Below, one piece after another: positions 6,749-39,907 of a stretch of DNA of 39,907 nucleotides; the first letter of the stretch is position 1, and each line of letters opens with the position of its first letter. The notes under the pieces were generated by a model. It was given only the letters and a program-made list of their open reading frames with translations, did not search any database and was not told the origin of the DNA. Both the position numbers and the translations under genes were made by a program. The DNA comes from Caldifarciminota bacterium (GTDB lineage: Bacteria; Hydrothermota; Hydrothermia; B15-G9; WFZT01). Where the stretch lies: the NCBI GenBank assembly GCA_015489415.1, contig WFZT01000051.1, positions 1-39,907 on the forward strand. Reading direction: 5' to 3'.

Positions 6749-6781
6749 TTTAGGGCGGCGCCCTTCGGGCGCCGCCCTAAA
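6749..6781. terminator. Perfect 15-bp hairpin between the binding-protein gene and livF
   Basis: TTTAGGGCGGCGCCC (6749-6763) pairs exactly with GGGCGCCGCCCTAAA (6767-6781) around a TTC loop. It begins 7 bases after the binding-protein stop and ends 14 bases before the livF ATG. The 3' flank is AACACTCATAAAATT, not a U-tract. A partial terminator or a 3'-exonuclease barrier is therefore the likely role. Confidence 0.75.
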
Positions 6782-24846: not shown

Positions 24847-24893
24847 TGTTTGGGTGGGGGGCACTCGCTTCGCGAGTGCCCCCCACCCAAACA
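24847..24893. terminator. Perfect 22-bp hairpin between convergent genes
   Basis: The arm 24847-24868 (TGTTTGGGTGGGGGGCACTC plus GC) is exactly complementary to 24872-24893 around TTC. It lies two bases after the sorting-domain remnant and ~50 bases past the end of the convergent phosphatase gene. It could terminate transcription from both sides. Confidence 0.75.
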
Positions 24894-24940: not shown

Positions 24941-25714
24941 CTAATCCCCTTCAACTAACTTCTTCAACGATTCAAAAATTGCAGGTGTGGCGGCTATTAT
25001 GTTGCCAGAAAGCTCATCTTCTCCAGCAATGGGCTCTGCAATTCCACCTGCTTCTCTCACGATAACAATCCCTGCAGCAATATCCCAGGGAGAGAGGTAA
25101 TATTCGAAGAAACCGTCGAACATACCACATGCTACATATGCGAGGTCAAGCGCCGCCGCTCCTACCCTCCTCACCGCAGAAACATTTAAAAATACCTTTC
25201 TAAAAAGCCTCAAATAATCATCTAAAAACTCCTTATGCCTGAATGGGAAACCCGTTGCCACCATCGTCCGTGAAAGCTCTCTCTCACCGGATACGTGAAT
25301 ACGTTTATCATTTCTGTAAGCCCCCATCCCCTTTGCCGCGAAATACAGGTCATCCCTTGAAACATCAAGAATTGCACCCACTACAAGCTCACCTTTCACC
25401 TGCAAGCCGACAGAAACCGCAACGTACGGGAAGCCGTGAATAAAATTTTTCGTTCCATCAAGGGGGTCAACAATCCAGCGGAAATCCGACTTACCCCACT
25501 CCCCTGCCTCCTCGCTCAGGATTTCATGCTCCGGGAATGCTTCGAGTATCACTTTTCTTATCGCTTCTTCGGCCCTGATATCCACATCGGTTACAAAATC
25601 ATTTTCGCCCTTTTCTCTATAACGGTGCACCTTACCTAATTCAGGCTTGATAACTTCTCCAGCGGCAAGCGCGGCCTTCTTTGCAACCTCAACAAACGGT
25701 TTCAAATCTAACAT
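24941..25714 (-). CDS. suhB: Inositol monophosphatase family protein (SuhB-like)
   Basis: 257 residues, the standard size. The metal-binding motifs of the Li-sensitive phosphatase superfamily are all present. EILSEEAGEWG holds the first metal-binding Glu. WIVDPLDGTKNFIHG is the DPLDGT motif, and SPWDIAAGIVIVREAGG is the C-terminal WDxAAG motif. It should hydrolyse inositol-1-phosphate or related sugar phosphates (or fructose-1,6-bisphosphate, as some thermophile members do) in the cytoplasm. FATGFPFRHKE-type residues (ATGFPFRH) line the active site. No partner is evident, and it is flanked on both sides by intergenic hairpins. The specific substrate cannot be told from sequence. Confidence 0.9.
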   Translation of the reverse strand: MLDLKPFVEVAKKAALAAGEVIKPELGKVHRYREKGENDFVTDVDIRAEEAIRKVILEAFPEHEILSEEAGEWGKSDFRWIVDPLDGTKNFIHGFPYVAVSVGLQVKGELVVGAILDVSRDDLYFAAKGMGAYRNDKRIHVSGERELSRTMVATGFPFRHKEFLDDYLRLFRKVFLNVSAVRRVGAAALDLAYVACGMFDGFFEYYLSPWDIAAGIVIVREAGGIAEPIAGEDELSGNIIAATPAIFESLKKLVEGD

Positions 25715-25791
25715 AGTTCACTCTCCATTAAAATCATTTCCTCGTTCACTTTGTGCGAGGGCCTTAAAAATTGGGAGGCCCCCACCCTTCG

Positions 25792-25824
25792 CCCTCCCCC
25801 ACTTGCTTCGCAAGTGGGGGAGGG
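25792..25824. repeat. Perfect 15-bp hairpin, same family as 22328-22360
   Basis: CCCTCCCCCACTTGC (25792-25806) pairs exactly with GCAAGTGGGGGAGGG (25810-25824) around TTC. The left arm is identical to the 22328 hairpin. Confidence 0.75.
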
Positions 25825-26017
25825 AATGCTTTCTATTCCATAAGAGAAACTTGACTATACCCTTGCACCGCAGATTTCACACGAGCAAAATCGGCCCTTA
25901 CCTTAAGAGTATTAGAAAAATCCTCAAATACGTAAATTCGCATCATTCCCTCGGGGAAGAATTGGAAAATGGATAAGTCTGGAATTTCGTAGACCACAAT
26001 TCCCCATTCCACCCCGG

Positions 26018-26044
26018 CCCTCCCTTCCCTGAGGGAAGGGAGGG
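26018..26044. terminator. Perfect 12-bp hairpin after the YchF-like gene
   Basis: CCCTCCCTTCCC (26018-26029) pairs with GGGAAGGGAGGG (26033-26044) around TGA. It is about 150 bases past the YchF-like stop on the minus strand. Confidence 0.55.
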
Positions 26045-26191
26045 TGATAAATCCTCTCGACTTCTTGAAACTCCACCTCTCCCTCGGCCACGTGCACTCT
26101 GGGCGTAATGAACAGGAATGACGCTTCTGATCATACTCGCTCTCACCATTGATGCTATTTCTAATCCAATCAATTTTGCCATCAAATTTTT

Positions 26192-27232
26192 TTATTTTGA
26201 GAATCTAATGAGCATTATGTCGCCGTCCTGAACAATGTAATCCCGGCCTTCGAGCCGAACAGCACCCTTCTCTTTTGCCTTTTTCATGTCTCCGCCGAGT
26301 TCCATAAATTCTTTAAAATTTATGACCTCGGCCCTGATGAAGCCTTTTGCAAGGTCTGTATGAATTTTTCCTGCGGCTTCACGAGCGGTTGACCCCTTCT
26401 TGATAGGCCAGGCGCGGACTTCTTTCTCTCCAGCCGTTAAAAACACAATATAGCCAAGAATCTCAAAAATCTTCTGGATCAAAAGGTCAGTGGTTGGTCT
26501 CTCAAATCCATAAGCCTGAAACATCTCTCGTCTGTCAGCCTCGTCAAGGTCTACTATCTCTCTTTCAAGCGGCAGACAGGTTCTCAAAAATTCAAGTTTG
26601 CTCTCTCTCAACTTCTCAACAAATTCCTCATCGACCTCACCTGAAGTGAACTTTTCTTCAGATTGATTAAGCAGAATAAGTCTTGGTCTGTTTGTCGCAA
26701 AAGTGTACCCCTTTATGAGGTCTTTCTCTCGCTCACTCAACTCTACACGCCAGAGGGGAATCTCATTCGAGAGGGCATCCTCGAGTTTCTTCAAGACAGT
26801 GATCAACTCATCAGAAACCTTTCTTACTTTCCTCTCTTTCTCGAGTCTCTTGAGCTGTGAACTCACAAGTGAAAGGTCACTTAAAATCAACCTCAAATTT
26901 ATTTCTTCAAAGTCCTCTATTGCCGAGAATGGCTCAAAATCAGGCACCACGTGAATAAAGGCATCAAACCCGCTCATGGCATTGATTATCTCACCTGCGT
27001 TCTGCTCCTTCCACATCCTGCCAAACCCGTTGAAATCAAAGAGCTCGAAGCTGGCATAAGTGACCTTCTGTGGTTTATAAATTTCCGCCAATTTCTCGAT
27101 TCTGTCATCTGGGATAAAAACCTGCCCAATGTGGTCTACATAACCCTTTCCACGAGAGGACTTGCCCTTTGTCATCACCTCAAAAAGCGTTGTTTTCCCA
27201 ACGCCCTGTGTTCCAATTATTGCTATTTCCAT
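26192..27232 (-). CDS. YchF/Obg-related P-loop NTPase with TGS-like C-terminal domain, divergent
   Basis: 346 residues. The P-loop is GTQGVGKT at 7-14. The C-terminal ~85 residues (FLTAGEKEVRAWPIKKGSTA, AREAAGKIHTDLAKGFIRAE, the end EGRDYIVQDGDIMLIRFS) match the TGS domain of YchF/OLA1 closely. A coiled helical insertion (SLVSSQLKRLEKERKVRKV and ALSNEIPLWRVELSEREKD) is also typical of YchF. It departs from the norm in G1 (TQGVGKTT for PNVGKST), in the switch region (DFNGFGRMWKEQ for DIAGLV), and in the base-recognition motif, which reads NQSE. YchF itself uses a non-canonical NxxE and prefers ATP, so NQSE is compatible with ATP. It is probably a ribosome-associated NTPase or a paralogue of YchF. 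It begins one base after the stop of the upstream membrane-protein gene and is probably co-transcribed with it. Confidence 0.78.
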   Translation of the reverse strand: MEIAIIGTQGVGKTTLFEVMTKGKSSRGKGYVDHIGQVFIPDDRIEKLAEIYKPQKVTYASFELFDFNGFGRMWKEQNAGEIINAMSGFDAFIHVVPDFEPFSAIEDFEEINLRLILSDLSLVSSQLKRLEKERKVRKVSDELITVLKKLEDALSNEIPLWRVELSEREKDLIKGYTFATNRPRLILLNQSEEKFTSGEVDEEFVEKLRESKLEFLRTCLPLEREIVDLDEADRREMFQAYGFERPTTDLLIQKIFEILGYIVFLTAGEKEVRAWPIKKGSTAREAAGKIHTDLAKGFIRAEVINFKEFMELGGDMKKAKEKGAVRLEGRDYIVQDGDIMLIRFSK

Positions 27233-27233
27233 T

Positions 27234-28148
27234 TTAATACACCTTCCCGATTAAAAGAATTATCCCACCTGCAAGACTTGTGATCAGGGAGCTAAAATAA
27301 TAAAGCAAAGAGGTCAAAATGGCTCCCTCCCGTGTCAATCCCGTGCTGAATAGTGCCACAAATCCACCTTCTCGAAGGCCAAGACCGCTTATGGTAACTG
27401 GAATCATGGCAATCATATTGATAAGGGGGACAAAAAAGAGGAATTTGTAAAATGGATAGGAAAGTCCAATGGATTTCATCGCAAAGTAGGCCGAAATCGC
27501 ATAAGAAAACTGCACTCCAAAGGAAATGAGGATTCCTATCGCAACCCGGTCGGGGGATGAGCGAAACTCGTAGTATGAATCGTAAAAACGAGCGAATCTT
27601 TCCCCAATGTCAAAGGTCTTAATGAGGAGCATCACGTCCCTGACGAGCTTGTAAAAGTATTTGTTAAACGAGAGCACAAGAATGAGAATCAGTAGCAGAG
27701 CAGCGCCCAAGATGACCATTCTGAGTTTGTGAGTAAGATTAAATCCTATAGCCACTGCGAGTATGGAAAGCAGGGAAACTGCCACAAATCCCGTGAGCCT
27801 GTCCATTACCACTACAGCGAAATTCCCCTCATAATTTTTTAACTCCTTCCCAAGATAATAGCCTCTCACCACATCGAGTCCCCCGGAAGGCAGGAAATTA
27901 CCCAGGAAAAAACTAACAAGATAGACCTTTAGGAGTTTCAGGAACGGACTTTCATTATTGAGAAAATACTTCCACCTCCATGTCTGAAAAAGCACGGCAA
28001 GAAAGTTAAAAACGATGGCGACTAAATAAATCCAGGGATTAATGTGTTTAACAAGTCCAAACAGTCTATCTATGTGAGCCTTTCGAAGGATGAAATAAAA
28101 GGCGATGACTGTGAGAGCTATTCTGATGAGGGTGGAGAGTTTTTTCAT
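27234..28148 (-). CDS. YbhN/AglD-type integral membrane protein (LPG-synthase TM region family)
   Basis: 304 residues from the ATG at 28148 (KKLSTLIRIALTVIAFYFIL); a longer upstream frame would run through the adjacent tRNA gene and is rejected. It has seven or eight hydrophobic segments. The family hallmarks are INPWIYLVAIVFNFLAVLFQ, TWRWKYFL, YLVSFFLGNFLPSGGLDVVR, the phrase GNFAVVVMDRLTGFVAVSLL, and IPVTISGLGLREGGFVALF near the end. Members are related to the flippase part of lysylphosphatidylglycerol synthase and include proteins used in lipid or glycolipid handling. The soluble aminoacyl-transfer domain is absent, so this is not a full MprF. It starts 11 bases after the tRNA-Ser 3' end and is followed by the YchF-like gene. 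Confidence 0.82.
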   Translation of the reverse strand: MKKLSTLIRIALTVIAFYFILRKAHIDRLFGLVKHINPWIYLVAIVFNFLAVLFQTWRWKYFLNNESPFLKLLKVYLVSFFLGNFLPSGGLDVVRGYYLGKELKNYEGNFAVVVMDRLTGFVAVSLLSILAVAIGFNLTHKLRMVILGAALLLILILVLSFNKYFYKLVRDVMLLIKTFDIGERFARFYDSYYEFRSSPDRVAIGILISFGVQFSYAISAYFAMKSIGLSYPFYKFLFFVPLINMIAMIPVTISGLGLREGGFVALFSTGLTREGAILTSLLYYFSSLITSLAGGIILLIGKVY

Positions 28149-28158
28149 TGAAGTAGAG

Positions 28159-28248
28159 CGGAGAGGGTGGGATTCGAACCCACGGTAGGGGAGCAACCCC
28201 TACAACGGCTTAGCAAGCCGCCGCCTTCAACCACTCGGCCACCTCTCC
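28159..28248 (-). tRNA. tRNA-Ser (anticodon GCT)
   Basis: The 90-base cloverleaf closes. The acceptor GGAGAGG pairs with CCTCTCC, with discriminator G. The D-arm is GGCCGAGTGGTTGAAGGC. The anticodon stem GCGGC/GCCGT (one G-T pair) carries the loop TTGCTAA, giving GCT. A long variable arm (TAGGGGTTGCTCCCCTA) identifies class II serine tRNA. The T-arm contains GGTTCGAATCCC. CCA is not encoded. It reads AGC/AGT codons. The gene lies directly upstream of the YbhN-type gene on the same strand. Confidence 0.95.
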
Positions 28249-28256
28249 AGATATGG

Positions 28257-28339
28257 CGGAGGGTGAGGGACTCGAACCCCCAAGGGCAAACGCCCAGCGG
28301 ATTTCAAATCCGCCGCCTTACCAATTAGGCTAACCCTCC
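28257..28339 (-). tRNA. tRNA-Ser (anticodon TGA)
   Basis: The 83-base cloverleaf closes. The acceptor GGAGGGT pairs with ACCCTCC, discriminator G. The D-arm is GCCTAATTGGTAAGGC. The anticodon stem GCGGA/TCCGC carries the loop TTTGAAA, giving TGA. The long variable arm (TGGGCGTTTGCCCTT) marks a serine tRNA. The T-arm is GGGTTCGAGTCCC. CCA is not encoded. It lies 8 bases from the second serine tRNA and 46 bases after rplQ, so the tRNAs may be processed from the tail of the ribosomal transcript. Confidence 0.95.
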
Positions 28340-28385
28340 GCGAGCAAAATTATTTTAAATAGCTGATTCTGGCCTTTCAATCCCC

Positions 28386-28751
28386 CTACTTTTCGGGGAA
28401 CTTTACAAGCTCAAGGACTGCGACTTCTGCTCCGTCACCCTTCCTGAAACCAAGCCTGTAGATTCGTGTATAACCACCAGGCCTGTCTTTGAAAAGCGGA
28501 GCAATCTCGTCAAAGAGATAGTTTGTAATCTGCCTGTCAATTAAATACTTCCTGACAAGCCTTCTGGAATTAAAATCGTCTTTCTTGCCTATAGAAATGA
28601 GTTTTTCAACAAAACTGCGAGTAGCCTTTGCCTTTGGTAGTGTGGTTTTAATGCGACCGTGACGCAAAAGGGAAATTGCCTGATTTCTCAGCAAAGCCAG
28701 CCTGTGTTCTCTGTCTCTTCCAAGTTTCTTTACCCTTTTTCTGTGTCTCAT
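28386..28751 (-). CDS. rplQ: 50S ribosomal protein L17
   Basis: 121 residues. MRHRKRVKKLGRDREHRLAL followed by LRNQAISLLRHGRIKTTLPK is the diagnostic L17 N-terminus, and GGYTRIYRLGFRKGDGAEVA the C-terminal signature. It sits at the exit of the large-subunit tunnel. The start overlaps the rpoA stop by four bases. A small stem around the stop (CCCC GAAAAGTA GGGG) is the only terminator-like element before the tRNA genes. It is the last gene of the ribosomal cluster. Confidence 0.97.
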   Translation of the reverse strand: MRHRKRVKKLGRDREHRLALLRNQAISLLRHGRIKTTLPKAKATRSFVEKLISIGKKDDFNSRRLVRKYLIDRQITNYLFDEIAPLFKDRPGGYTRIYRLGFRKGDGAEVAVLELVKFPEK

Positions 28752-29746
28752 TTAGAAACCTCCTTGGTTTCTTCCTGCCCGAGGTATTTACTGACATCCA
28801 TACCAAATGTGAGTCCAAACTGCTCAAGCTTCTCTTTGATCTCCTCGAGGGACTTTTCGCCAAAGTTTTTCACCTGAAGAATCTCTTCCTCGGTTTTGGA
28901 GACCAGCTGAGCAATTGTCTCGATTCCTGCTTCCTTCAAGCAGTTGGCAGTTCTCTTGGACGGCTCGAGGAAATCAATGCTCTTGTTCAAAATCTGGTGG
29001 ATCTTCTCTTTCTCCTCAAACTTCAGCTCTTCTTTTCCGTATGGTGCTCCAATCTTCTTTAAAACAGGTTCAATGGACTTAAGTAGTGTTTTAGTTGCCA
29101 TCTCCAGTGCAACATCAGGCCTGATTGTGCCGTCGGTCCATATCTCAAGAATTAGCTTCTCGTAGTCGGTTCTGGCTTTTACACGAACATTTTCCACCGT
29201 ATAGTTCACCTTTACAATGGGAGAGAAGACGCCGTCAATGAAGATGGTCCCTGCGGGGAATCCTTCTTTAGACATCTCGGTGGAAGGGACGTACCCCCTA
29301 CCCTTGGCGGCAATGAGCTCAGCATAAAATTTTGCGTCATCCCTTGTCAGTGTCGCTATATGGTGCTCCGGATTGATAATCTCCACGTACTCTGGCACAT
29401 CAATATCTCCAGCCTTGACCTCTCTTGCACCCTCTGCTCTGATGTACAGGGTAGCGCGAGTGTCCACGGCATCATCCATCTTTAATCTCACACCCTTGAG
29501 ATTCAGCACAATCTGCGGAACCTCTTCCATAACCCCAGGGATTGTGGAGAACTCGTGGGAAACACCATCTATCCTCATTGCGACAATGGAGTATCCGGGA
29601 ATTGATGAGAGCAGCACACGCCTCAAGGCGTTGCCAACAGTAATCCCATAACCTCTTTCAAGGGGGACATACACGAACCTTCCATAGGTGTCGTTAACCT
29701 CTTCGACAAAAATCCCTTCCGGTAAAACAAACTGTGTATCAAACAT
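28748..29746 (-). CDS. rpoA: DNA-directed RNA polymerase alpha subunit
   Basis: 332 residues, the full length. The N-terminal dimerisation and assembly domain is clear (GRFVYVPLERGYGITVGNAL, RRVLLSSIPGYSIVAMRIDG, HEFSTIPGVMEEV). After an acidic linker (~235-250) comes the C-terminal helix-hairpin-helix domain that contacts UP elements and activators (FLEPSKRTANCLKEAGIETI, QLVSKTEEEILQVKNFGEKS, LEEIKEKLEQFGL). The gene is placed between rpsD and rplQ as in most bacteria, 11 bases after rpsD. All expected domains are present. Confidence 0.98.
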   Translation of the reverse strand: MFDTQFVLPEGIFVEEVNDTYGRFVYVPLERGYGITVGNALRRVLLSSIPGYSIVAMRIDGVSHEFSTIPGVMEEVPQIVLNLKGVRLKMDDAVDTRATLYIRAEGAREVKAGDIDVPEYVEIINPEHHIATLTRDDAKFYAELIAAKGRGYVPSTEMSKEGFPAGTIFIDGVFSPIVKVNYTVENVRVKARTDYEKLILEIWTDGTIRPDVALEMATKTLLKSIEPVLKKIGAPYGKEELKFEEKEKIHQILNKSIDFLEPSKRTANCLKEAGIETIAQLVSKTEEEILQVKNFGEKSLEEIKEKLEQFGLTFGMDVSKYLGQEETKEVSK

Positions 29747-29757
29747 ATAGAATCACC

Positions 29758-30387
29758 TCACTTAGAATACAGCTCAATGATGAGCCTTTCTGTTATCGGA
29801 TGGGTAATATCACTTCTAACCGGGTATCTAAGGACCTTTCCAAGGAATTTGTCCTTATCAAGGCTAAGCCATGCAGGAAGCTGCTCGAGATTTGTGTCTT
29901 CGAGTGACTCTTTCACAAATGGGATGTTTCTGGATTTTTCTTTGATTGTAATTTCATCGCCCGGTTTTACGAGGTATGAAGGAATATCCACTTTGTGTCC
30001 ATTCACTATCACGTGTCCATGGGTAACGAGCTGACGTGCCTGCGCACGGGATTTAGCAAATCCGAGATGGTAAACCACGTTGTCCAGTCTTCTTTCGAGT
30101 AGCGAAAGCAGGTTTTCACCGATATTTCCACCCATTCTTCTCGCTTTTTCGTAGTAGCCACGGAACTGCTTCTCAAGTACACCGTAAATTCTCTTAACCT
30201 TCTGTTTCTCTCTGAGCTGCAGGCTATAAATACTGTGCTTAATCCTCCTTGTGGGTCCGTGAATACCCGGAGGGTAACGTCTTCTTTCAAATGGACATTT
30301 TGAAGTAAAACATTTCTCGCCTTTGAGGAAAAGTTTTTCTCCTTCTCTTCTACACAATCTGCATTTGGGACCTGTATATCTTGCCAT
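29758..30387 (-). CDS. rpsD: 30S ribosomal protein S4
   Basis: 209 residues. [20 protein letters not shown] followed by [10 protein letters not shown] places cysteines at 9, 12, 26 and 31, the zinc-binding (C+) form. The S4 RNA-binding domain is [40 protein letters not shown]. It nucleates assembly of the 16S 5' domain and in many bacteria represses the alpha operon. It begins three bases after the rpsK stop. Confidence 0.98.
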
Positions 30388-30390
30388 TTG

Positions 30391-30792
30391 TTATACTCTC
30401 CTCCTCTTGGGTGGTCTGCAACCGTTGTGTGGTATAGGTGTTACGTCTCTAATGGCGAACACCTGCAAGCCAGCAGCCTGAATTGCGCGGATTGCCGCTT
30501 CTCTTCCAGGTCCGGGACCTTTGACCCAGACCTCAACTCTCTGGACACCGAGGTCTTTTGCCTCTTTTGCCGCTGCTTCAGCGGCTTTCGAAGCGGCAAA
30601 CGGGGTCCCCTTCCTTGTACCTGAAAAACCAACTGAACCTGAACTTGCCCAGGCTATTGTATTCCCTTTTAAATCGGTAATTGTCACAATTGTGTTATTA
30701 AAAGTGCTTTGAATATGAGCGATGCCAACCGGCTCTACACCTTTAGCCTTTTTCTTCTTTCTCCTCGTGGCTTCACTTCTTCTTCTCGCCAT
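30391..30792 (-). CDS. rpsK: 30S ribosomal protein S11
   Basis: 133 residues. The basic N-terminus ([16 protein letters not shown]) leads into [40 protein letters not shown], and ends with [17 protein letters not shown], all diagnostic of S11. It forms part of the platform near the mRNA exit. It is 11 bases after rpsM. Confidence 0.98.
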
Positions 30793-30803
30793 AAAAATCC
30801 TCC

Positions 30804-31172
30804 TTATTTCTTCCTCTTCTTGAAGATGTTACCGCGCGGTCCCTTCCTTGTCCTGGCATTTGAACGGGTTCTCTGGCCTCTCACAGGCAAGCCCATTTTA
30901 TGCCTTAAACCACGATAACATCCGATATCAATAAGCCTCTTAATATTTCTCTGAATCTCCGCTCTCAAAGCACCTTCCACCTTATACTTATCCACCTCAG
31001 CCCTGAGCTTCGCTATCTCTTCCTCGGTCAGGTCCTTTACCCTCTTGTCCGGATCAACGCCAGAATCACGGATGATTTTCCAGGCTGTTGAACGGCCAAT
31101 ACCAAAAATGTATGTAAGTCCTACCCACACCTTTTTATTTCTCGGTAAATCTACACCTGCAATTCTTGCCAT
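30804..31172 (-). CDS. rpsM: 30S ribosomal protein S13
   Basis: 122 residues. [33 protein letters not shown] (helix-hairpin region) and the basic tail [20 protein letters not shown] followed by [15 protein letters not shown] are typical. It is a head protein contacting tRNA and S19. It follows rpmJ by 12 bases. Confidence 0.98.
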
Positions 31173-31184
31173 TAACTATACCTC

Positions 31185-31298
31185 CTAACCCTGCCTCTGC
31201 TTGTGCTTGGGATTCTCACAAATAACCATCAATTTTCCTCTTCTTCTCACAATTTTGCACTTAGGGCACATTTTTTTGACAGAAGACCTTACTTTCAT
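31185..31298 (-). CDS. rpmJ: 50S ribosomal protein L36 (zinc type)
   Basis: A 37-residue gene: [20 protein letters not shown] then [17 protein letters not shown]. Cys11, Cys14, Cys27 and His32 form the zinc knuckle of the standard L36. A GGAGGAGAT binding site precedes the ATG at 31298. It is the first gene behind the internal promoter at 31338-31366, so it heads a sub-operon leading to rpoA and rplQ. Confidence 0.97.
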
Positions 31299-31316
31299 TG
31301 TATATCTCCTCCATTC

Positions 31317-31359
31317 AGGGAATTCAAAAGGTATATAATGATACCAACTTGAATTCCCT
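31317..31359. promoter_or_regulatory. 11-bp inverted repeat straddling the internal promoter
   Basis: AGGGAATTCAA (31317-31327) is exactly complementary to TTGAATTCCCT (31349-31359) with a 21-base spacer that contains the -10 element. It could be an operator for a dimeric regulator. The transcription start would fall inside the repeat, so an intact mRNA hairpin is less likely. Confidence 0.5.
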
Positions 31360-31366
31360 ATGTCAA
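31338..31366 (-). promoter_or_regulatory. Internal promoter between infA and rpmJ
   Basis: On the minus strand TTGACA (31361-31366) is followed after 17 bases by TATCAT (31338-31343, five of six consensus). Transcription would begin about 30 bases before the rpmJ ATG. The 110-base infA-rpmJ gap is the longest in the cluster. Confidence 0.7.
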
Positions 31367-31408
31367 TGACTGTTTTTAAGTCTGTCCACCAGACGCAAAT
31401 AAAACCTT

Positions 31409-31630
31409 TTACTTATACCTGTAAACTATTCTGCCGCGGGTGAGGTCGTATGGGGATAACTCCACTGTCACTCTATCACCTGGCAAAATTCTGATAAAGT
31501 GCATCCGCATCTTACCGGAGACATGGGCAAGAATTACGTGCCCGTTCTCCAGCTCAACCCTGAACATTGCATTTGGAAGTACTTCTTTTACCGTGCCTTC
31601 TACCCTTATTACGTTCTTTTTCTTCGCCAT
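31409..31630 (-). CDS. infA: Translation initiation factor IF-1
   Basis: 73 residues. [73 protein letters not shown] is the full S1/OB-fold IF-1. It binds the 30S A site during initiation. It is nine bases after map and followed by a 110-base gap with the internal promoter. Confidence 0.98.
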
Positions 31631-31639
31631 AGCCTTCCC

Positions 31640-32389
31640 TTATGGTATTTTTGTAAGGATTTCGGGCCCGTTGTCAAGTATGGCTATCGTATGCTCAAAA
31701 TGAGCCGAAAGTGAGCCATCTTTTGTGACCACGGTCCAGCCATCCTTTTTTGTTTTCACATGCGGTCGACCCATGTTGACCATGGGCTCAAGCGCAAGTG
31801 TCATACCTCTCTTCAAAATTGGCCCTCTACCTGGCGGGCCATAGTTAGGGACAAAAGGCTCCTCGTGGAGCTTTAATCCAACTCCATGACCTCCAAGGTC
31901 CCTGACCACTGAAAATCCTTCTTTTTCCGCATTCTCCTGAATCGCATGTGAAATGTCAGATAATCTGTTACCGGGCTTTGCCTGATCAATACCCCGGTAA
32001 AGCGCCCTCTCTGTAGTTTCTACAAGTTTTCTCACCTTTTCGGGCACATCGCCAACAATTATAGTGATTGCGGCATCACCGATGTACCCATTTAAAGTAA
32101 CCCCCACATCCACCTTTACAAGGTCTCCCTCCTTAATCTTCCTGTTGCCCGGAATGCCATGAACAACCTCATCGTTTAAAGAAATACAACTTGCCGCGGG
32201 GAATCCTCTGTAACCAAGGAAAGTTGGATACCCGCCACGATCCTCTATAAACCTGTGTATCTTTTCGTCCACCTCTTTGGTCATCACTCCGGGCTTTACA
32301 ATTTCTCTTGAGTACTCGAGGACCTCGGCAACAACAATTCCCGCTTTTCTAATGCCCTCGATTTCCTCATCGGTTTTGATAATTATCAT
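31640..32389 (-). CDS. map: Methionine aminopeptidase type I
   Basis: 249 residues. The di-metal site is complete: Asp in KVDVGVTLNGYIGDAA (two Asp), His in GGHGVGLKLHEEP, Glu in LALEPMV and Glu in AHFEHTIAIL, with the substrate His in NDEVVHGIPG. It removes the N-terminal Met of new proteins in the cytoplasm. It lacks the N-terminal zinc-finger extension of some type I enzymes. The start overlaps the adk stop by four bases. Confidence 0.97.
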   Translation of the reverse strand: MIIIKTDEEIEGIRKAGIVVAEVLEYSREIVKPGVMTKEVDEKIHRFIEDRGGYPTFLGYRGFPAASCISLNDEVVHGIPGNRKIKEGDLVKVDVGVTLNGYIGDAAITIIVGDVPEKVRKLVETTERALYRGIDQAKPGNRLSDISHAIQENAEKEGFSVVRDLGGHGVGLKLHEEPFVPNYGPPGRGPILKRGMTLALEPMVNMGRPHVKTKKDGWTVVTKDGSLSAHFEHTIAILDNGPEILTKIP

Positions 32390-33033
32390 TTAAAAATCAC
32401 TTCCTCGATTGCGCGTGTAATTTTCTCAGGCTCACCGGTACCATCAATTCTTACAAGTAACCCTTTTTCTTTGTAATAGTCAATAAGGGGAGCCGTCTGC
32501 TCGTGATATACGGCGAGTCTGCGCTTTATCGTCTCGGGATTGTCATCTTTTCTCTGAACCAGCTTAGTCCCGCAAACATCACAGATTTCATCATTCTTCG
32601 GCGGATTGTAAATCATGTTGTAAACAGCGCCACAGTTGGGGCAAACGCGTCTGGCACTCAATCTTTTTACAATCTCCTCATCAGGTACATCAAGGAGAAT
32701 GACTGCCTTTAATGGCATGTTCTTCTTTTTCAGCAACTCATCCAGCCCTTCAGCCTGCTTAACAGTTCTCGGGAAACCATCGAGGATGAACCCCTTATCA
32801 ATTTTCTCAAGTTGCTCTTCGATGAGTCCAAGCATTATCTCATCAGGGACAAGCTCACCAGCTTTCATATATCCATCGGCAAGCTTTCCAAGCTCAGTTC
32901 CATTCTTCACGGCCTCCCTCAGGATATCTCCTGTGGATATTTTCACGAGGCCATGCTTCTTCGCTATGATTTCTGCCTGGGTCCCCTTTCCAGCACCTGG
33001 AGGCCCGAGAAAAATGAAATTTAGAACCGCCAT
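32386..33033 (-). CDS. adk: Adenylate kinase
   Basis: 215 residues. The P-loop is GPPGAGKGTQ near residue 10, then STGDILREAVKNGTELG and LDGFPRTVKQAEGLD. The LID domain is the long form with two CxxC pairs (CPNCGAVYNMIYNPP ... CDVCGTKL), so it should bind zinc, as in many Gram-positive and thermophilic enzymes. It interconverts ATP+AMP and 2 ADP. It overlaps the end of secY by 13 bases and map by four. Confidence 0.98.
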   Translation of the reverse strand: MAVLNFIFLGPPGAGKGTQAEIIAKKHGLVKISTGDILREAVKNGTELGKLADGYMKAGELVPDEIMLGLIEEQLEKIDKGFILDGFPRTVKQAEGLDELLKKKNMPLKAVILLDVPDEEIVKRLSARRVCPNCGAVYNMIYNPPKNDEICDVCGTKLVQRKDDNPETIKRRLAVYHEQTAPLIDYYKEKGLLVRIDGTGEPEKITRAIEEVIFK

Positions 33034-34331
33034 CCTCTCAATCTCCCTTTCTTCAAAAGCCCCTCATACTGCCTCATAATGAGCTGAGCTTCAATCTTCT
33101 GCATAATCTCAAGGGCCACTCCCACAATAATCAGGAGCCTCGTGCCACCGAAGTAAAATGGGATATTTGTCCACTTGATGAGATACCACGGCAGGATTGC
33201 AATCAGAGCGAAGAATACAGCGCCTGGCAAAAGAATCCTCGTCATAATCGTGTCAATGTATTCAGCCGTCTTTGGACCGGGTCGCACTCCGGGTATAAAA
33301 CCAGAGTACCTCTGAAGGTTATCAGCGAGGTCTTTCGGATTCATGACAACTGCGGTGTAATAGTAGGCAAAGAAGATGATTAATGCAGCGTAAAGCAGGT
33401 CATAAACTAAATTTCCAGGTTTAAACCATTGAGTGAAGCTTTGAGCCCAGGGCGCAGTAACAAAAGTCGTAATAGTATTGGGAAACATCAATAAAGCCTG
33501 TGCAAAGATAATCGGAATAACGCCAGCTGTGTTAACCGTTAGTGGCAAATAAGACGATTGTCCACCATAGACCCTTCTCCCGACCACTCTCTTGGCGTAC
33601 TGGATTGGTATTCTTCTCTGGGCCTCGGTCACAGCCACAACAGCGGCAGTCACAAGGAGCATCACAACAGCGACAAAAAGGAGCGTGATAGGGGAAATTC
33701 CTCCACTCTTCAAAAGCCTTATGGTGTTCATGAATTCGTTTGGCACCGAGTCAAGGGTTCCAGCGAAGATGATGATGGAGATTCCATTTCCAATCCCAAA
33801 ATCGGTTATCTGCTCACCAAGCCACATGAGGAAAATTGAGCCTGCCGAAAGTGCAACCACTGTGAGAAAGATGAATCCCAGTCCTGGATGGGGCACAACC
33901 GGTGCACCTGAGGGGCTCGTCAGTCTCTGAAGGAAAATAGAAACACCAAAGGCCTGAATAGCAGCAATAACGATGGTCAGATACCTTGTGTATTGGTTTA
34001 TCTTTCTCCTTCCGTGCTCACCTTCTTTCTGTAGTCTCTCAAGATATGGCCAGGCAGTAGTTAACAACTGGATGACGATTGACGCAGAAATGTAGGGCAT
34101 AATTCCCACGCCGAAGACCGCAGCCCTCGAGAGAGCACCACCGACGAAGATGTCGTAGAGTCCGAAGACTGTGCCTCTCAGCTGGTTGAAGAACTCACCG
34201 AGTGCTCTCGCGTCAACTCCTGGAAGTGGAATATGTGTACCGATCCTGTAGACGAAGATGATGAGAAGGGTCCAAAGAATCTTTTTCCTCAGGTCACTTA
34301 TCTTTACTATGTTACCGACGCTCTGGAGCAT
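33021..34331 (-). CDS. secY: Preprotein translocase subunit SecY
   Basis: 436 residues with ten hydrophobic helices. Hallmarks are LLIIFVYRIGTHIPLPGVDA, the plug/helix-2 GVGIMPYISASIVIQLLT, YTRYLTIVIAAIQAFGVSI, GEQITDFGIGNGISIIIFAG, and RIPIQYAKRVVGRRVYGGQS. The cytoplasmic loop with PKDLADNLQRYSGFIPGVRP is the SecA/ribosome contact. It is three bases after rplO. With SecE/SecG encoded elsewhere it forms the protein-conducting channel used by the secreted proteins seen in this window. Confidence 0.98.
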   Translation of the reverse strand: MLQSVGNIVKISDLRKKILWTLLIIFVYRIGTHIPLPGVDARALGEFFNQLRGTVFGLYDIFVGGALSRAAVFGVGIMPYISASIVIQLLTTAWPYLERLQKEGEHGRRKINQYTRYLTIVIAAIQAFGVSIFLQRLTSPSGAPVVPHPGLGFIFLTVVALSAGSIFLMWLGEQITDFGIGNGISIIIFAGTLDSVPNEFMNTIRLLKSGGISPITLLFVAVVMLLVTAAVVAVTEAQRRIPIQYAKRVVGRRVYGGQSSYLPLTVNTAGVIPIIFAQALLMFPNTITTFVTAPWAQSFTQWFKPGNLVYDLLYAALIIFFAYYYTAVVMNPKDLADNLQRYSGFIPGVRPGPKTAEYIDTIMTRILLPGAVFFALIAILPWYLIKWTNIPFYFGGTRLLIIVGVALEIMQKIEAQLIMRQYEGLLKKGRLRGWRF

Positions 34332-34334
34332 CCT

Positions 34335-34814
34335 TTATTCCTCTTTTGCTTCTTCTTTTTTAGCACCGAGTAAAATTACTTTACCACCTGCCTTCTCAAT
34401 CTTCTCCTTTGCTTTTGCACTTATGGCATCAACGTGAACTTCAATAGCCTTTGTAATCTCGCCGTTTGCAAGAACCTTAACTGGCGCATCTGCAGAGCGT
34501 ATGAGTCTCCTCTTCTCCATCTCCTCTTTCGTTGCAATCTCACCAGCCTTAAACTTTGCATCAAGCCGGTTGAGATTCACAACCTGATATACAATCTTAA
34601 AGGGATAGTTGGAAAATCCGCGCTTTGGTAGCCTTCTGTAAAGTGGCATCTGGCCACCTTCAAACCATCTTGGTTTTGCACCACCAGAGCGGGATTTCTG
34701 TCCCTTGTGTCCATAGCCGGCCGTCTTTCCAAGACCCGAACCGGGACCTCTTCCCTTTCTCTTCTTCTCTTTAACCGCACCGTTTGCAGGTGCCAGATTC
34801 GAAAGATCAAACAT
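34335..34814 (-). CDS. rplO: 50S ribosomal protein L15
   Basis: 159 residues from the ATG at 34814 (MFDLSNLAPANGAVKEKKRK); the AGGAGG nine bases ahead supports this start over an earlier in-frame ATG at 34844, which would lie inside rpmD. The Gly-rich GRGPGSGLGKTAGYGHKGQK, SRSGGAKPRWFEGGQMPLYR, RLPKRGF region is diagnostic. It ends with an acidic Lys/Glu tail. Confidence 0.96.
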   Translation of the reverse strand: MFDLSNLAPANGAVKEKKRKGRGPGSGLGKTAGYGHKGQKSRSGGAKPRWFEGGQMPLYRRLPKRGFSNYPFKIVYQVVNLNRLDAKFKAGEIATKEEMEKRRLIRSADAPVKVLANGEITKAIEVHVDAISAKAKEKIEKAGGKVILLGAKKEEAKEE

Positions 34815-34818
34815 CGTC

Positions 34819-35016
34819 CTATTCCTCCTTTTCGAATTCTTCAACCCTAACGAGATGCTTCACAACCTCAATCATACCCCTGATCTGGGGCGTATCTCTC
34901 TTCACAACTTCCCTGTTAAGCTTTCTCAAACCGAGAGCATCAAGCGTTCTCTTGGCTTTCTTGTTCTGGTCTATTCTGCTCCTCACTAACTTGATCTTCA
35001 AGTACTTTTCTTTCAC
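34819..35016 (-). CDS. rpmD: 50S ribosomal protein L30
   Basis: 65 residues from GTG 35016 ([20 protein letters not shown]); an ATG at 35022 is one base from the AAGGAGGT site, whereas the GTG is seven away. [40 protein letters not shown] is the L30 core. Its first ~77 bases overlap the 3' end of rpsE in another frame, so its ribosome binding site lies within the rpsE coding sequence. Confidence 0.93.
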
Positions 35017-35518
35017 GACCATACCTCCTTAAAATGGTTTTGAGAGGTACACCTCTAACCTTAGCAACCTTATCTGGATTTTTCAGCTTGAGCAGTCCAT
35101 TCAAAGTAGCCTTGAGCATGTTGATTGAATTGTTGGAACCAAGGGACTTGGTCAGTGCATCTGTATAACCTGCAGCCTCAAGGATTGCACGAACTGGCTG
35201 GGAAGCAATAATTCCGGTACCCGGTGCAGCAGGTTTCAGAAGAATCTTACTCGCACCTTCACGACCAATAACCTCGTGGGGAAGTGTTCCATTCAAAATT
35301 GGCACACTAACAAGATTCTTCCTCGCCTTTCTTGTCGCCTTCTGTATGGCCTCAGGGGTCTCCTGTGCTTTTCCGTGACCGATTCCTACTCTACCCTGTC
35401 CATCGCCTACTACAACCCAGGCTGAAATTTTGAAGTTCCTTCCACCCTTGGTAACCTTCGTAACCCTTTTTAAAACAACGACGTTTTCATTAAGCTCTGT
35501 AACGCCTCTTTCTGCCAT
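34940..35518 (-). CDS. rpsE: 30S ribosomal protein S5 with C-terminal extension overlapping rpmD
   Basis: 192 residues, about 25 longer than the common form. The double-stranded RNA-binding part is [40 protein letters not shown], and the C-terminal domain [60 protein letters not shown]. After [11 protein letters not shown] it continues as [32 protein letters not shown], an extension encoded by the same DNA as the start of L30. The protein helps decoding fidelity and the mRNA entry channel. Confidence 0.95.
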
Positions 35519-35530
35519 ATTCTAACTCCT

Positions 35531-35908
35531 TTAAAATTTCAGGCCGCCTTCTCTGGCGCCATCGGCAAGGGCCTTGACCCTGCCGTGGTACTTGTAGCCA
35601 GCGCGGTCAAACGCCACCTGTGTAATTCCCTTTTCCATCGCGCGCTTTGCAATGAGCTTTCCAACCTCTTTGGCCTTCGCAATCTTTCCTTTGACTTCCT
35701 TAAGCTGCTCGCGAATCTCCGGTGAGAGTGATGATGCTCCGGTAATCACACGTGAAGGACCGATTGGAGGATCAACTACTATCTGAGCCCAGATGTGCTT
35801 ATTGCTCTTATACACTACCAATCTGGGCCTCTCCTCGGTCCCTTTAACCTTTTTTCTAACCCTTAAATGTCTTCTCTTCCTTTTCCAAACCTTAATCTCT
35901 GGTCTCAT
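35531..35908 (-). CDS. rplR: 50S ribosomal protein L18
   Basis: 125 residues. The basic N-terminus [20 protein letters not shown] then [20 protein letters not shown], and the C-terminal [30 protein letters not shown] are diagnostic. It binds 5S rRNA with L5. It is 13 bases after rplF and 12 before rpsE. Confidence 0.98.
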
Positions 35909-35921
35909 ATTCTCACCTCAA

Positions 35922-36464
35922 TCAGGCTTTTACGCCAGCCTTACCAGCTTTTCGCCTAATGTGCTCACCAACGTATTTAATTCCTTTACCCTTGTAAGGT
36001 TCAGGTGGCCTCACGGCTCTAATATTGGCGGCAAACTGGCCTACTTTTTGCTTGTCAATTCCTTCAACAATTATCTTATTCTGCCCTTCAACTTTAACGG
36101 TAATCCCTTCGGGGGGTGTCATAACGACGTCATGAGAAAATCCGACCTGGAGAACGAGATTCTTGCCTTCCATTTTTGCCCTGTAACCGGTTCCATTTAC
36201 CTCAAGTTCCTTCTTAAATCCGTCTTTAACACCAATAATCATGTTGTTAATAATCTGCCTTGTGGTCCCATGAAGAGCCCTGTGGAATTTTTTATCAGAA
36301 GGTCTCTTAACAACAATTTCTTTGTCCTTGATTTCCACAATCATATCCGGGTGATGCCTGAACTGGAGCTCCCCTTTGGGACCTTTAACCTTAATGAGGC
36401 CATCCTTATATTCAACAGTAACCCCATCTGGAATGGTTATTGGTAACTTTCCTATCCTCGACAT
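35922..36464 (-). CDS. rplF: 50S ribosomal protein L6
   Basis: 180 residues with the two duplicated L6 domains. MSRIGKLPITIPDGVTVEYK, LIKVKGPKGELQFRHHPDMI opens the first. The second carries VEGIDKQKVGQFAANIRAVR, PPEPYKGKGIKYVGEHIRRK, the conserved signature. It sits near the factor-binding site. It is 12 bases from rpsH. Confidence 0.98.
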   Translation of the reverse strand: MSRIGKLPITIPDGVTVEYKDGLIKVKGPKGELQFRHHPDMIVEIKDKEIVVKRPSDKKFHRALHGTTRQIINNMIIGVKDGFKKELEVNGTGYRAKMEGKNLVLQVGFSHDVVMTPPEGITVKVEGQNKIIVEGIDKQKVGQFAANIRAVRPPEPYKGKGIKYVGEHIRRKAGKAGVKA

Positions 36465-36476
36465 AGTATCTCCTCC

Positions 36477-36875
36477 CTACCAGACATAGAGCATAAGCTC
36501 GCCGCCGACCTTCTTCCTTCTCGCCTCGCGGTCGGTCATCAGTCCCTGTGAAGTAGAAATTATCGCAATTCCCATTCCGTTTTTCACCCATGGAATCTTA
36601 TCGGAGCTAACATATATCCGCCTTGAAGGTTTAGAAACTCTCTGCAGGTCCTCAATCACAGGCTCACCAGTCTCGTCATACTTGAGCACGACCTTAATCT
36701 TACCGCCTCTTTCTTCGGAAATAACCTGATAATCCTGAATGAAACCTTCGCGCTTCATAATCTTCAGAATTTCCAGCTTGAGATTGGATTTCGGCTCTAT
36801 GATAACCTCTTCTTTCCTGTTTCTAACCGCATTCCTGATCCTTGTCAGCATATCAGCAATTGGATCTGTATTCAT
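36477..36875 (-). CDS. rpsH: 30S ribosomal protein S8
   Basis: 132 residues. NTDPIADMLTRIRNAVRNRK at the start and the C-terminal MGIAIISTSQGLMTDREARR, KKVGGELMLYVW are diagnostic. It binds the central domain of 16S rRNA and often autoregulates the spc operon. It is 12 bases after rpsZ. Confidence 0.98.
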   Translation of the reverse strand: MNTDPIADMLTRIRNAVRNRKEEVIIEPKSNLKLEILKIMKREGFIQDYQVISEERGGKIKVVLKYDETGEPVIEDLQRVSKPSRRIYVSSDKIPWVKNGMGIAIISTSQGLMTDREARRKKVGGELMLYVW

Positions 36876-36887
36876 AGTTCGACCTCC

Positions 36888-37076
36888 TCACCAGCTTGCC
36901 TTCTTAACCCCGGGGATCTCCCCGCGCAGGGCAAGCTCTCTAAAACAGATGCGACACAGACCAAACTTACGAATGTAACCGTGTGGTCTTCCACACCTCT
37001 TACACCTGTTTCTGTGTCTCACCTTAAACTTGGGCTCTTTCATAAATGTCTTAACGACTTTAGCTTTCCTTGCCAA
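36888..37076 (-). CDS. rpsZ: 30S ribosomal protein S14, zinc-binding type Z
   Basis: 62 residues, the short form. [20 protein letters not shown], then [20 protein letters not shown] gives the two CxxC pairs that bind zinc, followed by [18 protein letters not shown]. It is in the 30S head near the A site. The short zinc form is usual for Gram-positive and thermophilic bacteria and for several FCB-related candidate phyla. Confidence 0.97.
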
Positions 37077-37082
37077 TTCTCA

Positions 37083-37628
37083 TTACCTCCTCTCAAACGG
37101 AAAACCAAATTCCTCAAGAAGCTTCATTGCCTCTTCGTCGGTCTCCGCAGTGGTAACAATCGCTATATCCATTCCAAAAACCTTTTTAACTTTATCGATG
37201 TCGATTTCGGGAAAAACTGTGTGCTCATTCAACCCAAAGTTATAATTGCCTCTTCCATCAAAGGAATCTCTTGGCAATCCTCGGAAATCTCTCACACGTG
37301 GCAGTGCAAAATTGATCAATCTATCAAGAAAATCGTGAGCCATTCTTCCACGAAGGGTAACTTTAAGACCAATGGGCATTCCTTTTCTAAGATGGAATGC
37401 AGCAACTGCCTTTCTTGCTCTTCTAATCACCGGCCACTGTCCGGTAATCATTGCAAGGTCCTGAGCAATCACATCCAGAATCTTCGGGTCCTGAACAGCC
37501 TCACCAACACCCACATTAACCACGATTTTCTCGATCCTCGGCACCTGGTGGATATTTTTATATCCAAGCTCTTTCATCAATTTCGGTCTGATTTTCTCTT
37601 TGTATTCCTTGAGATATCTCGACATCAC
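37083..37628 (-). CDS. rplE: 50S ribosomal protein L5
   Basis: 181 residues. Diagnostic stretches are [60 protein letters not shown] and [20 protein letters not shown]. It contacts 5S rRNA and P-site tRNA. The start overlaps rplX by four bases. Confidence 0.98.
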
Positions 37629-37951
37629 TCAATCACCTCACCGCATTTTTTGCAGTACCTGACCTTTCTTCCATCCTCGAGAAACTTGAATCCCACGCGT
37701 GTCGGATTTCCACAGTTCGGGCAGATAAGTCTAACGTTAGAAACGTGAATTGGAGCTTCCATTTCGATAATTCCGTGCGGCTCTTCAGGAGAAGTCCTTC
37801 TCTGGTGCTTCTTAACCTTATTAACGTCTTCAACGATAATTCTGTTTGTCTCAGGAAAAACCTTAATGACTTTCCCGATTTTTCCGCGAGTCCTGTTGTG
37901 GTCACCCTTCACCACCAGCACGGTATCGCCTTTCTTAATCTTCGCCGCCAT
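37625..37951 (-). CDS. rplX: 50S ribosomal protein L24
   Basis: 108 residues. The KOW motif is [40 protein letters not shown]. The C-terminal part has two CxxC pairs ([15 protein letters not shown] ... CKKCGEVIE), a zinc-ribbon-like ending common in L24. It is an early assembly protein. Its ATG begins one base after the rplN stop. Confidence 0.97.
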
Positions 37952-38320
37952 TTATACCACCTCCGGTGCAAGTGAGACAATCTTCATAAATCTCTTCTCT
38001 CTCAGCTCTCTTGCTACTGGGCCGAAGACACGAGTTCCCTTTGGATCGTTGTACTGGTCAATGAGTACAGCAGCGTTGTCGTCAAATTTAATATAGGTGC
38101 CATCCTTTCTACGCATCTCTTTTCTCGTTCTCACAATCACAGCCTTCATCACATCACCTTTTTTAACTGAAGAACCGGGGACAGCCTCTTTGATAGTCAC
38201 AACTACAACATCGCCCACATAAGCATATTTTCTTCTCGAGCCACCTAAAACCTTAATGACCATTGCTTCCTGAGCACCAGTGTTATCGGCAATCTTTAAT
38301 CTTGTGAAATCCTGAATCAT
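37952..38320 (-). CDS. rplN: 50S ribosomal protein L14
   Basis: 122 residues, the invariant length. [40 protein letters not shown] and the end [31 protein letters not shown] are diagnostic. It forms an intersubunit bridge and contacts L19. It overlaps rpsQ by four bases. Confidence 0.98.
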
Positions 38321-38613
38321 TTTTCTTCCTCCTTATTTAGAAGGTCTTCGGGACGCTCAGCCTTTCTCAAGATTTCCACAAGTCTCCATCTCTTTAACTT
38401 AGAAAGGGGCCTGGTCTCCATGATTCTCACAATGTCACCCTCTCTGGATTCATTGTGCTCATCATGAACGTAGTACTTTTTCCTGACCTTGATATACTTC
38501 TTGTAGAGAGGGTGTTTAACAATCCTCTCGACGACCACGACCCGCGTTTTATTCATCTTATCGGAGACAACTTTGCCGACTCTTTCTTTTCTAAAACCAC
38601 GTCTCTCTTTCAT
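38317..38613 (-). CDS. rpsQ: 30S ribosomal protein S17
   Basis: 98 residues. [79 protein letters not shown] is the complete OB-fold S17. It binds 16S rRNA early in assembly. Four-base overlaps with both neighbours (rpmC and rplN) indicate tight coupling. Confidence 0.98.
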
Positions 38614-38825
38614 TTTGCTCCACTCCCGGATTTCTGAAGCTCTCTTTCCCTCAGGATTGTGAGAATCCTCGCAATGTCCTTCTTAAGAAGCTTGAACATG
38701 TGGGACTTCACCTCCGCCTTCTGGGCGTGCTGGAATCTGAGGTTAAAGAGCTCTTCTTTCAAATCACTCAGTTTCTGGCGCAGCTCGTCGTCGGTGAGCT
38801 CTCTCAGCTCTCTCGCCTTCATCAT
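38610..38825 (-). CDS. rpmC: 50S ribosomal protein L29
   Basis: 71 residues of two antiparallel helices. [40 protein letters not shown], and [17 protein letters not shown] are diagnostic. It sits at the tunnel exit near the SRP/trigger-factor site. It overlaps rplP and rpsQ by four bases each. Confidence 0.97.
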
Positions 38826-39241
38826 ACTCCTCCTTCCTTAAGAGACACAAACCTCGTCTTTATGGGGAGTTTAAAGGAAGCCTTCCTGAAAGCCTCTCTT
38901 GCCTGCTCTTCGGTCACACCGGCAAGCTCAAAGAGTATCCTTCCAGGCTTGACCACTGCTACCCAGTGATCAACATTTCCCTTTCCCTTCCCCATACGTG
39001 TCTCGGCAGGTTTTTTCGTCACTGGCTTATCCGGGAAAATTCTTATCCAGAGTTTTCCACCTTTTTTAAGATATCTTGTAATGGCAAGACGTGCCGCCTC
39101 AATCTGGTTTCCAGTAATCCAGTGGGCCTCAAGGGCCTTTAATCCATATTCTCCAAAAGCAATGTAGTTTCCTGAAGTTGCTTTACCCTTTCTGCGTCCT
39201 CTGTGCTGTTTTCTATATTTTGTCCTCTTTGGCATCAACAT
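38822..39241 (-). CDS. rplP: 50S ribosomal protein L16
   Basis: 139 residues. [20 protein letters not shown], the motif [40 protein letters not shown] and [20 protein letters not shown] are diagnostic. The first ATG (39241) is nine bases from GGAGG; a second ATG two codons later is the start used by many homologues. It contacts the A-site tRNA and the peptidyl-transferase region. Confidence 0.98.
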
Positions 39242-39242
39242 C

Positions 39243-39905
39243 TCAGTAAACCTCCTCCTCTTCTGTATGCTTCTTTGTAAGAATCTCGCCCTTGTAAATC
39301 CATACCTTCACGCCAATTGTCCCATACTTGGTGTAAGCTGTAGCTTCGGCGTAATCAATGTCCGCTCTCAGGGTTTGAAGAGGCACTCTGCCCTTTCTGT
39401 ACCATTCTTTACGGGCAATCTCGGCTCCGCCGAGTCTTCCCTTGGTCTGCACCTTGATTCCCTTAGCACCCATCCTCATTGCCATATCAACTGCACGCTT
39501 CATCGCCCTTCTGTGTGAAACACGCTGTTCTATCTTCTGGGCAATGGACTGGGCTACAAGCTCTGCCTGAATCTCAGGAATCCTTACCTCGTGGACGTTG
39601 ATGTTAATATCCCTTTTTCCGGTAAGTTCCATGAGCTCGCGTCTCAGAACCTCTACCTCGGAACCTCGTCTACCAATCACAACACCCGGTCTCGATGTGT
39701 AAATATTGATACTCAACTTCTCAGCGGCTCTATCAATGATAATGTCAGCAACCTGTGCATCCTTGAGTCTCGTTCTCAGATACTGCCTAATCTTAAGGTC
39801 CTCTTGAAGGTTTGCCTCAAGGTCTTTACCCTCGGCAAACCAGTGGGCTTTCCAGTCCTTTGTAACTCCCAATCTAAATCCTATCGGATGAACTTTCTGT
39901 CCCAT
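39243..39905 (-). CDS. rpsC: 30S ribosomal protein S3
   Basis: 220 residues. The start [20 protein letters not shown] is two bases inside the right edge, so the protein is complete although its ribosome binding site is outside. The KH domain has [13 protein letters not shown]-like residues ([20 protein letters not shown]), and the C-terminal domain [40 protein letters not shown] is conserved. It forms the mRNA entry site. rplV and rpsS are expected next beyond the window. Confidence 0.98.
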
Positions 39906-39907
39906 AC

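Follow-up and report, generated by a model that had tools for sequence, protein, structure and literature searches.

In Escherichia coli, the genes rpsM-rpsK-rpsD-rpoA-rplQ are started by a separate promoter, and rpmJ is part of the spc operon ahead of them, with the alpha promoter placed after it. The locus studied here is comparable to this spc/alpha boundary in that the same five genes very probably have a promoter of their own, and it differs in that the promoter lies ahead of rpmJ, with infA upstream. Another known arrangement is that of the Zur boxes, which are palindromes standing upstream of zinc-free rpmJ paralogues. Here too a palindrome is found at the promoter of an L36 gene, but this rpmJ keeps its cysteines, it is the sole copy found in the genome, and the palindrome is not enriched; with no second rpmJ found and no such enrichment, Zur-type control was rejected.

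The leaders of the T4 gene e (lysozyme) and of I-TevI are closer in layout. In these leaders the promoter is encoded in the region of the hairpin's 5' strand, own-promoter transcripts lack that strand and upstream-started ones fold, and in T4 the ribosome binding site lies inside the hairpin, which lowers translation about 100-fold (PMC3014915). Our locus is similar in that the promoter is placed so that its own transcripts are predicted to miss the 5' strand, and dissimilar in that the Shine-Dalgarno sequence lies 4 nt past the stem with slight predicted sequestration, the gene being a housekeeping ribosomal gene with a standard type of promoter. A lineage-specific 43-bp hairpin between two operons has also been described at PI-2b of Streptococcus agalactiae, where it terminates transcription at a distance of 184-191 bp from the downstream gene and alters read-through into the downstream operon (PMC5249243). 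The present hairpin is likewise lineage-specific, 43 nt long and located between transcription units, but it overlies a promoter and carries no U-run.

The window of this study, that is, the whole 39,907-nucleotide stretch of DNA analysed, carries rpmJ, rpsM, rpsK, rpsD, rpoA and rplQ co-directionally and in that order on the minus strand, the last five names having been assigned from the translations (Table 1). The infA-rpmJ spacer displays TTGACA-17-TATCAT at 31366..31338 of the minus strand, and its -10 is flanked by two perfect 11-bp arms that are separated by a gap of 21 bp. The initial annotation had reported this promoter and repeat together with the gene order downstream, and the sequences, the coordinates and the order were all found to be right. 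The inner GGTAT/ATACC pair, which is nested within the same hairpin as the 11-bp arms, was absent from it.

Table 1. Features of the infA-rpmJ spacer and the neighbouring genes (window coordinates)
Feature	Position	Strand	Remark
-35 hexamer TTGACA	31361..31366	(-)	same hexamer in 20/38 class genomes
-10 hexamer TATCAT	31338..31343	(-)	TAAAAT in most other TTGACA-type relatives
Predicted transcription start region	31331..31332	(-)	predicted from the -10 position, 6-7 nt past the -10
Left (5') arm AGGGAATTCAA, inside promoter spacer	31349..31359	(-)	missing in G001
Right (3') arm TTGAATTCCCT, in leader of own-promoter transcripts	31317..31327	(-)	retained in G001
Inner imperfect palindrome GGTAT-N6-ATACC, overlaps -10	31330..31345 (31345-31341 / 31334-31330)	(-)	4/4 genus genomes
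43-nt hairpin	31317..31359	(-)	-19.8 kcal/mol as RNA, 37 C
Shine-Dalgarno-like GGAGGAG	31306..31312	(-)	read directly; 4 nt past hairpin base
rpmJ (L36; 37 aa, stop included), first gene past promoter	31185..31298	(-)	
rpsM-rpsK-rpsD-rpoA-rplQ	28386..31172	(-)	ORFs; homologues in order
infA, last gene ahead of promoter, after secY-adk-map	31409..31630	(-)	

The promoter motif on its own is weak evidence, because the 16 promoter-like sites counted in 25000-39907 compare with an average of 16.3 over 50 shuffles; the infA-rpmJ promoter was the sole 11/12 match among them. A search for rpmJ in 40 genomes of the class returned matches in 39, one of which (G013) was cut by a contig end, so that 38 were examined. 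TTGACA-17-TANNAT, with 11/12 matches, was observed ahead of rpmJ in 20 of these 38 genomes, and 10/12 matches were recorded in four f5 genomes. Twelve others (eight f9, four f4) had a -10-like hexamer 8-11 nt ahead of the rpmJ ATG without a good -35, while the promoter was weak in G021 and, among the 38, not found in G018. Within the 20 TTGACA-type genomes, infA was located 66-114 nt upstream in 13 and was not found within 1.5 kb upstream in six, and the remaining one (G014) offered only 65 nt of upstream sequence for this purpose.

With hexamers matching at 11 of 12 positions, a spacing of 17 bp and the same place in relatives, the rpmJ promoter is of the sigma-70 type and is ordinary in type. 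Judged from its conservation, a class-conserved promoter of this kind between infA and rpmJ very probably drives rpmJ-rpsM-rpsK-rpsD-rpoA-rplQ, as had been proposed, since it is conserved before rpmJ even in genomes where infA was not found nearby, and G001, a relative of the same genus, keeps it where rpmJ cannot be read from infA. Because it is kept in the six genomes with no infA found within 1.5 kb, the rpmJ cluster can uncouple from the genes that precede it, which agrees with the earlier suggestion that RNA polymerase alpha could be decoupled from the upstream ribosomal genes. The promoter would thus mark where one transcription unit of the main ribosomal cluster gives way to the next in this class of WOR-3 bacteria, and would account for the rpmJ-rplQ part standing apart from infA in some members of the class. 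We recognised no description of a promoter between infA and rpmJ in the openly accessible papers that were searched.

A different arrangement was noticed in two other groups of the class. TATAAT or TAAAAT stands 8 nt before the rpmJ ATG in all eight f9 genomes (G026, G029, G031, G033, G035, G037, G038 and G020) and 10-11 nt before it in all four f4 genomes (G010, G015, G023 and G039), with no clear -35 upstream of rpmJ in either. As the -10-like hexamer lies just 8-11 nt from the ATG, this suggests that the rpmJ mRNA is leaderless or near-leaderless in f9 and f4.

Dinucleotide shuffling of the 111-bp infA-rpmJ spacer produced an inverted repeat with perfect arms of at least 11 and a gap of 3-40 in 3 of 5000 trials. 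The whole window, though, holds nine repeats with perfect arms of at least 11 and a gap of 3-40 (mean 0.7 in 20 shuffles), five of which have a 3-base gap, and 18 of 11,380 random 17/6/40 placements in it equalled or exceeded the score of the infA-rpmJ repeat; place and conservation therefore outweigh the repeat alone. The range of the repeat was found to be narrow. Its conservation in relatives held for three of the four genus genomes, namely the window's genome (G000), G002 and G003, and was limited to these, since G001 retains the -35, the -10, the inner palindrome and the right arm and lacks the left arm. Ten further TTGACA-type genomes of the class also have infA upstream, and in these the best bracketing arms reached just 3-7 bp.

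In G001 the ribosomal genes are broken apart between infA and rpmJ, which occupy separate contigs (G001:C26 near 6614 and G001:C241 near 17454), and the closest ORF upstream of rpmJ is divergent, head to head with it; transcription from infA therefore cannot reach the operon there. The left arm is therefore present in the three genus genomes with infA upstream and absent from the one without, a link that amounts to about one event, because there are only four genus genomes and G000 and G003 are near-identical. A five-gene tree placed G001 outside the other three with a support of 78, so that the left arm may have been gained once G001 had branched off or may have been lost in G001. The right arm, kept in all four, has a 3' part, TCCCTGAATGGAGGA, that also precedes rpmJ in family f2; the right arm thus appears to predate the left arm or to be independent of it, and the occurrence in f2 suggests that the right side has its own role as a leader.

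Beyond the genus, the best arms on either side of the -10 had p values against shuffles of 0.0175 (G028), 0.0255 (G032), 0.03 (G039), 0.06 (G034), 0.09 (G015) and 0.10 (G006), with others above 0.10 and the sister genome G030 at 0.956. Lineage permutation returned 0.031 when run on 8 lineages of the TTGACA type and 0.0015 when run on 13, and a class-wide bracketing inverted repeat is a hint only, because the permutation ignores base composition and families are not alike in it. In G006, G004, G028 and G032, inverted repeats that are short (5-7 bp) and unrelated were also seen to bracket the -10 before rpmJ, with nominal p values of 0.02-0.25 and inconsistently among sister genomes.

What, then, might the hairpin do in the part of one genus where it overlays the promoter? 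As RNA, the 43-nt element folds at z -5.5 (window), its G002 counterpart is predicted at -22.5 kcal/mol, and the fold is still predicted at 65 C; a hairpin in RNA is an alternative that the initial annotation had not raised. The reading we favour, tentatively and with a probability of roughly 0.45, is that the hairpin works in RNA and forms a boundary within mRNA that reads through. Folding would be confined to such RNA, because the predicted start at 31331-31332 lies between the arms: transcripts from the promoter itself would, by this geometry, carry the right arm only and form no hairpin, while presumed read-through RNA from secY-adk-map-infA would hold both arms and form it. There the hairpin may serve in processing, in protection of the infA 3' end or in dampening the use of the read-through copy. 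A fold confined to read-through RNA fits the absence of the left arm in G001, and if the hairpin does act in this way, it would be a simple means of separating two overlapping messages of a housekeeping cluster.

The stem does not cover the ribosome binding site. The Shine-Dalgarno sequence (31312-31306) lies outside the stem, whose base is at 31317, and it is predicted to pair with rpmJ codons and not with the left arm. Its predicted openness at 37 C, in read-through versus own-promoter RNA, was 0.25/0.41 in G000, 0.20/0.41 in G003 and 0.13/0.47 in G002, with the reverse in G001 (0.41 versus 0.32), and the start codon in read-through RNA was predicted to be equally or more open in G000 and G003. 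At 65 C these differences became smaller, the fall from own-promoter to read-through RNA in G000 being from 0.46 to 0.39, compared with 0.41 to 0.25 at 37 C. Direct sequestration of the Shine-Dalgarno by the hairpin thus appears slight in these predictions. It is improbable, in our estimate, that transcript origin acts as a switch by which read-through rpmJ-rplQ copies are folded and handled differently from promoter-started ones; were it true, the cell could adjust RNA polymerase alpha and S4/S11/S13 independently of the secY-infA part of the cluster, and the T4 gene e layout would be used by a bacterium for housekeeping genes.

Two other RNA identities were rejected. The hairpin is not an intrinsic terminator, because the stem is followed by GAATGGAGGAG and no U-run, and it was not among the terminator-like sites of our scan. 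A known RNA family was likewise discarded, as the Rfam 15 scan of the window at the gathering threshold returned two tRNAs only, with no ribosomal leader and no match at the gathering score for the hairpin.

Among the explanations that compete with an RNA-level boundary, a DNA operator with this single site survives best, though we regard it as rather unlikely. With a dimeric repressor or cooperating dimers bound to the repeat, RNA polymerase would be kept from the -10, which the arms bracket; since they are 32 bp apart centre to centre, about three helical turns, they would lie on one face of the DNA, each holds GAATTC, and the inner GGTAT-N6-ATACC is retained in all four genus genomes. A loose half-site allowing 2 mismatches was also commoner than its reversed control (241+228 versus 143+130, or 469 versus 273), in a match list that also contains a repeated element. 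The genome search proposed in the initial annotation nevertheless brought no second site: the full repeat is single-copy in the window's genome even at 3 mismatches, and unique in each of the three genus genomes with gaps of 15-30. The inner palindrome occurred 5 times against 5 in the reversed control in the window's genome, and 14 against 13 over the four genomes. With one copy of the repeat and no enrichment of the inner palindrome, an operator shared with other genes is unsupported, and the regulon version was rejected. G002, moreover, has one arm base changed and a spacing 1 bp longer, and G001 carries the promoter core and the right arm without the left arm; a repressible promoter, as first proposed, was therefore not supported.

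Two further recurrences were noted in the window's genome. The leader motif ATTCCCTGAATGGAGGA, considered as an element common to r-protein genes and allowing 3 mismatches, was found in 14 places against 5 for the reversed control, with an exact match only at rpmJ. An identical 33-base stretch is present at C138:9410, C162:60, C217:5510 and C268:11172, with near copies in C25 and C36, suggesting a dispersed repeat. The 121-bp spacer itself has one match in its own genome, and its origin as a dispersed repeat or MITE was rejected.

The left arm may alternatively be a functionless by-product, in which a template switch seeded by the inner palindrome copied a constrained right arm; we consider this rather unlikely too. 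The right arm in all four genus genomes, its TCCCTGAATGGAGGA part in f2, and an inner palindrome able to seed the switch in all four would accord with such an origin, but the identity kept on the left side suggests constraint. Between G000 and G002 the promoter spacer, with the left arm in it, agrees at 15 of 17 positions, compared with 10 of 46 fourfold rpsM sites, so that neutral divergence is saturated; G000 and G001 share 6 of 17 and 11 of 44, respectively. The probability of 15/17 identity is 7e-8, 1e-6 or 6e-5 at a neutral identity of 0.25, 0.3 or 0.4, and the left arm of G000 and G002 is therefore likely to be under selection. Two of the three left-side bases between the arms (GTT/GTA) are shared as well, and the right arm could not have templated them.

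The changes in the hairpin speak for the RNA-level reading. G000 and G002 differ by two substitutions and one insertion, which cut the perfect DNA arms to 10 and widen the spacing by 1 bp, with the RNA fold kept or strengthened. Of 4000 random sets of two substitutions plus one insertion, 26 attained -22.5 and 212 attained -19.8; when changes were allowed only in the left arm and the right T-run, the counts were 112/4000 and 452/4000, and because restricted changes reach the thresholds more often, the fold-preserving bias is milder. The overlay, with the promoter inside the hairpin, is real, limited in range and probably selected.

That the hairpin acts as a cruciform in supercoiled DNA at the promoter is very improbable: as single-stranded DNA the repeat is predicted to fold at -11.4 and -11.3 kcal/mol on the two strands, but a cruciform would require a long unpaired -10 region.

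Elsewhere in the window, five inverted repeats (539-579, 6749-6781, 24847-24893, 25792-25824 and 26018-26044), whose perfect arms of 12-22 bp are separated by 3 bases, far exceed the shuffled expectation, and these may be terminators or repeated hairpins.
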